This document shows positions 34,524-35,794 of a DNA stretch of 64,000 nucleotides, piece after piece. Source of the stretch: Anaerococcus jeddahensis (GTDB taxonomy: Bacteria > Bacillota > Clostridia > Tissierellales > Peptoniphilaceae). The translations under genes were made by a program, and so were the position numbers. Under the pieces are notes generated by a model that saw only the letters and a list, made by a program, of their open reading frames with translations, was not told where the DNA came from and made no database searches. The stretch spans positions 558,001 through 622,000 of the forward strand of contig NZ_CWHU01000005.1 in the NCBI RefSeq assembly GCF_001182725.1, in the 5' to 3' direction. Numbering within the stretch: position 1 is the stretch's first letter; each line of letters starts with the position of its first letter.

Positions 34524-35324
34524 ATGATAAGACTTTATACACAAAACGATATAGAAAAAATGTATGGGGCTTCAGAAATTCTTTGCCAAACACACCTTGC
34601 AATAAAAGAAATTATAAGAGCCGGAATTACCACAAAATATCTTGACGAATTTGCTAATAAATTTATCAAGCACAAAAATGCAAGACCAGCTCAATTAGGT
34701 TATCAAGGCTTTCCATATACACTTTGTATATCTGTAAATGATGAAATTTGCCATGGATTTCCTTCAGATTATAAATTAAAAGAAGGAGATGTAGTTTCAA
34801 TAGATAATGTTATTGATTACAAGGGTGGACTTGCTGATTCATGTTGGACCTACAAAATTGGGAAATTAAGCGAAGAAAATGAAAGATTAGTTGATGTAAA
34901 TTTAAAAGCTCTTTACAAAGGAATAGAAGCTGCAAAACCAGGAAATAGAATAGGCGATATAGGCCACGCTATCCAAGAATACGTTGAAGGCGAAAATGGA
35001 TTTTCAGTAATAAGAGATTTTATTGGACACGGCATAGGCAAAGAAATGCACGAAGATCCCCAAGTTCCACACTACGGAAGAAAAGGATTTGGTCCTAGGA
35101 TAGAAGAAAATATGGTATTTACAATCGAACCTATGATTGCTGTAGGCGATTGGAAATCAAAAATGGATGCAAATGGATGGACAGCAAGAACCAAAGATGG
35201 TTCAGTTTGTTCACAATTTGAACACCAACTTGTTATAAGAAAAGATGGGGCAGAAATAATAACTGACCAAAACAAGTTTTCTTTAACAGAAGAAGATAAA
35301 AAATTTATAGAAGCATACAAATAG
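34524..35324 (+). CDS. map: methionine aminopeptidase, type I
   Basis: A 266-residue M24A metallopeptidase that removes N-terminal methionine. Metal ligands are seen as Asp in SIDNVIDY, Asp in ADSCWT, His in IGHGIGKEMHEDP, Glu in FTIEPMI and Glu in QFEHQLVI; the substrate His is in ICHGFPS. The region NIDVGV of most type I enzymes reads SIDNVI here. No N-terminal zinc finger. Its TAG stop lies inside the first copy of a palindromic terminator that is duplicated 217 bp downstream. Confidence 0.95.
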   Translation: MIRLYTQNDIEKMYGASEILCQTHLAIKEIIRAGITTKYLDEFANKFIKHKNARPAQLGYQGFPYTLCISVNDEICHGFPSDYKLKEGDVVSIDNVIDYKGGLADSCWTYKIGKLSEENERLVDVNLKALYKGIEAAKPGNRIGDIGHAIQEYVEGENGFSVIRDFIGHGIGKEMHEDPQVPHYGRKGFGPRIEENMVFTIEPMIAVGDWKSKMDANGWTARTKDGSVCSQFEHQLVIRKDGAEIITDQNKFSLTEEDKKFIEAYK

Positions 35325-35340
35325 GAGAGAAATCTCCTAT
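35321..35340. terminator. map terminator hairpin, copy 1 (displaced from its T-tract)
   Basis: ATAGGAGA and TCTCCTAT form a perfect 8-bp stem with a GAAA tetraloop, but the next bases are TAGAGC and not a T-run. An identical 20-bp copy with its T-tract sits at 35538-35557. Confidence 0.75.
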
Positions 35341-35537
35341 TAGAGCGTATACAAATCCTCAAGCACGAATATCTGACTTCCAAAATTGGTGATTTCTAAA
35401 TTTTAAAATTCTAAAATCGTAAACTCGCTAACGCTCAAACAATGCGATTTTTGTCGAATTTTTAAATTTGAAATCAAATCAATTTTTTCCGTATGATATT
35501 CTTAGCGTGAGGATTTGTATACTTTGTCGACAGTCTG
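35341..35537. mobile_element. palindromic MITE-like element flanked by 20-bp direct repeats
   Basis: About 197 bp lies between two exact copies of the map terminator hairpin. Its ends carry a 27/28-bp imperfect inverted repeat (35347-35373 against 35495-35522, beginning GTATACAAATCCTC). A second inner pair, 35391-35419 against about 35442-35472, makes the whole segment one long imperfect stem-loop around a 25-base centre. No ORF is present, so any transposition would need a transposase in trans. The base composition of the core (TCGCTAACGCTC) differs from the AT-rich surroundings. The 20-bp direct repeat may be a target duplication. Confidence 0.6.
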
Positions 35538-35565
35538 ATAGGAGAGAAATCTCCTATTTTTTTAT
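35538..35565 (+). terminator. map terminator hairpin, copy 2 with T-tract
   Basis: Identical 20-bp hairpin (35538-35557) followed by T7, a functional intrinsic terminator. The next 230 bp to brnQ are extremely AT-rich with no gene or clear signal except a weak -10 (TAAAAT near 35766). Confidence 0.85.
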
Positions 35566-35794
35566 AAAAAATAATTTTTTTCAAAAAGATAAAATATACC
35601 AAAATAAAGTAAATAAGTGAAAATAAATAATAAAAATACAAAATAAAATGTTTTCAAATTTATAATTAACAAAAATACCAATAAGGAAATCTCATGATTT
35701 GCAAATAAATATAAAAAAATATGAAAAAAATTTTAGAAAAGACTTAATAAGTAATTAAAAAAATGGTAAAATATAAAATAAATGAGGGGGACTT

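Follow-up and report, generated by a model that had tools for sequence, protein, structure and literature searches.

A duplicated hairpin behind map

The window, a 64,000-nucleotide stretch of the Anaerococcus jeddahensis genome, contains the gene of a type I methionyl aminopeptidase (map), and the gene after it encodes a branched-chain amino acid carrier. Just behind map lies a 199-bp element between two copies of one hairpin (Table 1). The two copies of ATAGGAGAGAAATCTCCTATT, at 35321-35341 and 35538-35558, are exact over 21 nt, and the region 35321-35557 is nearly wholly self-paired, with an RNA folding energy of -85.9 kcal/mol (z -11.0, none of 200 shuffles being as good). The 199-bp element alone, folded as DNA, reaches a z of -6.5. 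Two exact hairpin copies around a self-complementary segment are what an earlier note, made from the letters alone, had described. The note had also stated that only the distal hairpin keeps its T-tract and that the proximal one holds the map stop codon. This was borne out by a terminator scan of 35200-35750, which returned one site, the distal copy at 35537-35558 (mean of 0.1 in shuffles), and by the position of the TAG codon at 35322-35324, inside the proximal hairpin. In each of the six nearest congeners, as in the window, the TAG stop of map forms part of the terminator stem.

Table 1. Features at the 3' end of map, numbered by position in the window
Feature	Position	Strand	Remarks
map (type I methionyl aminopeptidase)	34524..35324	+	TIGR00500, 286 bits against a cut-off of 171
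Proximal hairpin copy, TAGGAGA-GAAA-TCTCCTA, without T-tract	35322..35339	+	one copy in 6 of 6 close congeners
MITE, 199 bp, IS1182-type ends, family 1	35340..35538	+	13 copies in its own genome; 53 copies compared
Left terminal inverted repeat, GCGT end, TTAGAGCGTATACAAA	35340..35355	+	
Right terminal inverted repeat, CTGT end, TCAGACTGTCGACAAA reading inward	35523..35538	-	
Inner inverted repeat, left arm	35347..35364	+	94% complementary
Inner inverted repeat, right arm	35505..35522	-	
Distal hairpin copy	35539..35556	+	
T-tract	35557..35563	+	with the distal hairpin, the sole terminator-like site in 35200-35750

The limits of the element were set from the empty site and from the other copies. 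By this, the target duplication, given as 20-21 bp in the earlier note, is reduced to 18 bp (TAGGAGAGAAATCTCCTA), a length that is uncertain by 1-2 bp at map because the end base can be assigned to either side. The terminal inverted repeats, formerly put at 27 bp, are about 16 bp long and poor in the window copy (11 of 16 positions alike); the longer repeat had included the inner 18-bp inverted repeat, whose right arm stands farther from the right end of the element than the left arm does from the left end. The ends that recur in other copies are TCAGAGCG... and ...CAGTCTGA, with their window equivalents at 35340 (TTAGAGCG) and 35538. No ORF of at least 80 aa is contained in the 199-bp element; its edge includes the start of a 103-aa ORF that runs antisense to map. 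The scan of the window gave no match above the Rfam gathering threshold near 35.3 kb, so that no group II intron or other structured RNA was identified there. A phage origin was rejected, as 35300-35580 had no match among phage records.

The Map protein was found in 30 of the 31 genomes of the genus, that of the window included, and is 94-97% identical in the six nearest congeners (G003, G028, G002, G027, G016, and G029). In all six, the 3' end of map reads AATAGGAGAGAAATCTCCTATTTTT, with a single hairpin followed by a T-tract and without the element, indicating that the insertion is absent from the closest relatives compared. In G003, the sequence further downstream of map is that of the window. 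In another genome (G017), a different element with a similar end, CAGAGCGTAGACAAAG, starts just 3' of the hairpin over the map stop codon (about 140 bases viewed); it looks like an independent second insertion into the same terminator.

Three further copies of the window genome were compared with the congeners, and empty sites were found for all three. At the first (L004), three congeners have a single hairpin, the fourth locus being not comparable. At the second (L005), six congeners were compared, half of them with a single hairpin and half with an element. At the third (L011), three of six lack an element, one of them with a different hairpin, and three have one. Hence, at two of the three sites an element is present in the same terminator in several species, either by inheritance or by repeated insertion.

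The hairpin thus occurs singly in the empty sites and in two copies at the filled one, which differs from an IS1272-type insertion, in which the hairpin is lost and no duplication is made. IS1272, itself of the IS1182 family, replaces or partly deletes hairpins according to two reports (PMC5678879, PMC4923244), and a divergent IS1182 lineage of Anaerococcus, described below, replaces a hairpin at one site where seven other genomes have hairpin-bearing empty sites. For the window element, such a stem-loop replacement, with the flanking hairpins being the element's own ends or carried along from a donor, is nevertheless very improbable and is refuted by the six empty sites, in which the map hairpin stands once as the target's own; copies at other sites, moreover, carry other hairpins. 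A terminator carried by the element was likewise rejected, given that the hairpins vary by locus.

MITE copies and their IS1182 partner

The window genome holds 13 copies of the element (family 1), obtained by grouping 28 matches after exclusion of one weak 59-bp match; four of them are longer (320-324 bp) through an extra core. Among the matches listed, family 1 occurs in 24 of the 31 genomes of the genus, its own included. For comparison of the flanks, 53 copies from seven genomes were used (40 among the matches listed and the 13 own copies), which fall into 45 site clusters. The left and right flanks gave a duplication score of at least 8 in 38 of the 53 copies, and 31 of the 45 clusters had at least one copy above this threshold. 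When left flanks were instead paired with right flanks of different sites, 1 of 2635 scorable pairs reached the threshold; this control had first stood at 18 of 2756 and, without same-site pairs, at 1 of 2738, of which 103 pairs could not be scored owing to N letters.

The earlier note had read the segment as a non-autonomous insertion into a terminator with a target duplication. The empty sites at map (6 of 6) and at three other copies, the multiple copies and the duplicated flanks elsewhere uphold that reading. The note had also named what would speak against it, namely a single-copy segment at the same place in all relatives, or other copies lacking flanking duplications. The first does not apply, since the element is multi-copy and absent at map in relatives. 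The second applies only in part, as 38 of the 53 copies are duplicated and 15 are below the threshold; two of the 15 (L077 and L079) were scored as misses on account of N letters in a flank. These 15 copies count against the MITE explanation. A hairpin score of 12 anchored at the junctions, reached by family 1 in 35 of 52 left and 43 of 52 right flanks compared with 304 of 2818 random anchors, separates less sharply, which also counts against it.

Beyond the repeated hairpin itself, nothing favors an origin without a transposon, be it an assembly artefact or a segmental duplication that locally doubled the terminator around a filler. We give this next to no credence; it is refuted by the matches in 24 of the 31 genomes (among those listed, the window genome included), and the ends are constant, the hairpins are locus-specific, and empty sites exist.

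At least two further small families have the same ends, as judged from an end pattern that has 15 exact matches in the window genome, none of them at the 13 family-1 copies. A duplication was found in 13 of 18 end-pattern copies (13 from the window genome and five from G008, G010, and G030); two of the original 20, L123 and L129, were left out because they contain a nested element. The 1.6 kb shared by these two includes a 416-aa frame that we take to be IS110-type. IS110 was rejected as the mover, as comparison with other copies marks this 1.6-kb element as a passenger inside the second MITE family.

In six of 71 MITE copies, the two flanking hairpins match better in inverted than in direct orientation (L090, 23/23; L132, 21/21; L006, L122, and L128; L076, marginally), and this counts against the explanation. 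Where the hairpins match as reverse complements, the loop is inverted in one of the two. Such pairs could have arisen by later inversion of the loop or from the transposition intermediate itself.

The search for an autonomous relative with the same ends, which the earlier note had proposed, led to a 1.6-kb IS of the genus, and the family that the note did not recognize is now identified. In G008, the IS copies are 1599 bp long with the ends TCAGACTGTAGACAAAGTA ... GGGTTTGTCGACGCTCTGA, which the MITE ends resemble when read in the opposite direction. MITE copy L051 and the intact 1599-bp IS (L093) agree at 18 of 19 positions at each end and are dissimilar in the interior. The window copy agrees with the IS ends at 15/19 and 18/19 positions, the medians of the 53 copies being 17 and 17. 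The transposase of this partner carries PF13751 and PF05598 and matches the NCBIfam model NF033551 for IS1182 (435 bits, cut-off 270); sequence matching linked it to no solved structure. Given the common ends and the NF033551 match, the family is IS1182, and by its sequence the window element is an IS1182-type MITE, differing from the IS in having no transposase. The four G008 IS copies examined, of five present, each lie between full hairpin copies, with duplications of 21-26 bp. At one IS copy (L092), the hairpins differ between the two sides.

A search for PF13751 gave matches in 14 of the 31 genomes, 13 of them above the cut-off, with both IS1182 lineages counted. The window genome had none, so that the mover was lost, was missed or lies elsewhere; this counts against the explanation, although a transposase source in the same genome is a usual rather than a defining trait of MITEs. 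In A. ihuae (G003; L094/L171), the sole IS1182 copy keeps a 502-aa transposase ORF and is truncated on the right, where the loss reaches as far as the distal hairpin copy. In principle, this copy may serve MITEs in trans while itself being immobile.

Flanking repeats and palindromes across IS1182 relatives

Relatives of the partner were collected by scanning the contigs of genomes from 84,980 species, each species represented once, with three transposases by means of two peptide patterns. Of 162 relatives found, 80 were kept and 74 were scanned for CAG...CTG ends and a flanking repeat scoring at least 10, a cut-off that hides insertions with short duplications, so that none of these can enter the set. 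A direct repeat at this score was present at 51 of the 74 loci, 50 of the 51 being outside Anaerococcus, in hosts that include Clostridium, Oceanobacillus, Bacillus, Paenibacillus, Cohnella, Peptoniphilus, and Cellvibrio. All 51 repeats, of 16-52 bp, are palindromic to their ends: at least five of the six outer positions are paired in 51/51 repeats, compared with 85 of 10,085 random windows of equal length from the flanks, and the paired fraction is 0.93 against 0.28 in the random windows. Single copies on plasmids behave likewise (Enterococcus casseliflavus, about 19 bp; E. faecium, 21-23 bp; Providencia, 19-21 bp).

The widest range within one genome was seen in Clostridium carboxidivorans, where one IS has 11 repeats of 18, 21, 22, 24, 27, 34, 36, 36, 37, 41, and 52 bp, each its own palindrome. 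A spread of 18-52 bp from one IS in one genome is unexpected for a fixed stagger on linear B-DNA. DDE transposases commonly give fixed short duplications. This background favors an ordinary double-helix target on which protein geometry sets the duplication length, the palindrome being a mere binding preference, and a preference of that kind needs no cruciform. We consider this improbable, because a single IS in a single genome yields duplications of 18-52 bp, each over its own palindrome, and because all 51 repeats are palindromic at their ends. A duplication that tracks palindromes of 16-52 bp is hard to obtain from a fixed protein spacing on linear DNA and is natural if the feet of the hairpin are united in a cruciform. 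The expectation of the earlier note that the long duplication reflects an unusual mechanism or a terminator-targeting element was right: what is duplicated is the hairpin, be it short or long. Within this one clade, the rule that the repeat equals the whole palindrome accounts for much of the range of IS1182 repeat lengths.

Several observations count against this reading. Pairing extends 1-9 bp beyond the duplication in 26 of the 51 cases, which means that the cut falls near the foot of the stem and not always at the last pair. No repeat scoring at least 10 was found at 23 of the 74 loci, and 19 of these were viewed. Seven (L179, L189, L190, L197, L206, L218, and L226) had, by eye, a different complete hairpin at each junction, which we read as recombination between IS copies; in the remaining ones, one recognizable end was missing, the contig end was reached, or the hairpin was one-sided. 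At L181, on a metagenome contig, the two IS flanks repeat each other in inverted orientation over a long stretch, which may be an artefact of the assembly.

Most of the IS targets look like terminators. At least four T occur in the eight bases to the right of the repeat in 45 of the 51 cases and at least four A to the left in 43 of 51, which leaves the direction mostly unclear. The T-rich flanks would suit a single-stranded hairpin as the target, on the lagging strand at a replication fork or in a transcription bubble at the terminator, rather than a double-stranded cruciform, and so would the orientation of family 1: a gene comes in on the GCGT side only in 21 copies, on the other side only in 3, on both in 25, and on neither in 4 (p 0.0003, from a heuristic gene call on partly related copies). 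On the other hand, a whole hairpin can be duplicated only if strand transfer involves both strands, a T-tract is missing from some target palindromes (L245 and L230), and no orientation bias was seen for the IS (10 vs 9) or for MITE family 2 (2 vs 5). We consider a single-stranded target unlikely, with a probability that is low but appreciable.

A second IS1182 lineage in Anaerococcus behaves differently. It encodes a 523-aa transposase, has the ends GGGGCTGTTGCA ... TGCAACATCACC and lacks a flanking hairpin; in five of the six copies displayed, with L114 as the exception, an A-rich stretch stands on one side and a T-rich one on the other. Loci of this lineage are L117, L107, L106, L100, and L120. 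At the L117 site, the place taken by the IS in G004 is occupied, between the same flanks, by the hairpin GGGAAGTATAG ... CTATACTTCCC in seven other genomes, among more matches, with small changes here and there. Judged from these empty sites, the divergent lineage swaps the hairpin for the IS at this site, as in IS1272. A tree of 36 transposases covered 26 from the 51 loci, another five of the duplicating kind, four of the replacing kind, and ISCfr1. The replacing transposases formed one group (100/100) and the duplicating ones another with moderate support (77/93); the tree came with long-branch warnings.

A hairpin-sized duplication and its meaning

As a whole, the observations are best explained, with a probability that we put at about 0.85, by a non-autonomous miniature transposon (MITE) with IS1182 ends that was moved in trans into the map terminator, where the hairpin was duplicated through attack at its 5' foot. 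After the split from the close congeners, an IS1182-family transposase acting in trans would have carried the 199-bp MITE into this site. The transposase would read no target sequence and would recognize a palindrome, most likely in extruded form (a hairpin or cruciform). On each strand, one 3' end of the element would be joined at the 5' foot of this hairpin, and gap repair would then copy the whole hairpin, giving a target duplication as long as the hairpin. With the T-tract retained by the distal copy and the map stop codon by the proximal one, both the gene and its terminator would survive, and the host seems to suffer little.

When a DDE transposase attaches the two 3' ends of an element at staggered positions of the two strands, the intervening DNA is duplicated. 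Attack on the 5' feet of both strands would thus duplicate the whole hairpin, and attack on the 3' feet would lose it. The step from the footprint of the duplications to a cruciform is one that we infer; the footprint itself suggests that the target is recognized by its shape. With somewhat better than even odds, we extend this to the family: IS1182 transposases may handle an extruded hairpin like a four-way junction, with differences between lineages in the feet that are attacked, the 5' feet giving duplication (the present clade and its MITEs) and the 3' feet giving replacement (IS1272 and the divergent Anaerococcus lineage). DNA shape, rather than sequence or protein spacing, would then set both the target and the size of the duplication, and duplication of the whole hairpin would allow entry into terminators without harm to gene or termination.

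Palindrome targeting and variable repeats are already reported for IS1182. Members that target palindromes are attributed to Siguier 2015 (as cited in PMC4923244 and PMC5678879), direct repeats of 2-60 bp in ISfinder are mentioned as an extreme case (PMC7335449), ISPse1 of this family is listed with a 4-bp repeat (PMC3281130), and IS1182-related transposases are said to act with or without duplication (PMC12056078). The nearest known system is IS1272/TnSha1 of staphylococci, which is of the same family and likewise targets hairpins, often terminators, without a sequence consensus (PMC4923244, PMC5678879). It differs in that IS1272 makes deletion-type insertions into terminators, deleting or replacing the hairpin without duplication, whereas the present clade duplicates it. 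In the Discussion and the Fig 13 legend of Wan 2017 (PMC5678879), both outcomes are drawn, the duplication of a whole stem-loop as pathway b of a model and not as an observation, with IS1272 assigned to the loss. In the literature covered, whole-hairpin duplication was met only as that hypothetical pathway, with no statement that the repeat equals the whole hairpin and no mention of these MITEs; most subscription journals, ISfinder, and TnPedia lie outside that coverage, and curators may know the rule.

Two other comparisons are instructive. ISCfr1 of Enterobacteriaceae plasmids is annotated as IS1182-like and shares 133 identical residues with a 499-aa Anaerococcus transposase in an alignment, whereas the one copy viewed (L254) lacks a hairpin and has a repeat of no more than 6 bp (CGGCCG). 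The pneumococcal repeats RUP, BOX, and SPRITE are also short structured repeats with MITE features (PMC3049150). SPRITE is itself terminator-like, its duplication being unknown there, whereas the present element inserts into terminators, which become duplicated.

The rule that the repeat equals the palindrome opens the mechanism to direct testing, as graded hairpins should give graded duplications. Since duplicating and replacing lineages of one family occur in one genus, they can readily be compared to find which residues decide between the two feet. In annotation work, two terminator hairpins in tandem with a spacing of about 200 bp or 1.6 kb can be interpreted as an insertion. If the proposed mechanism is true, it would be a case of DDE transposition in which the stagger is set by the secondary structure of the DNA, and the duplications would form a natural record of palindromes that are able to extrude in living cells.
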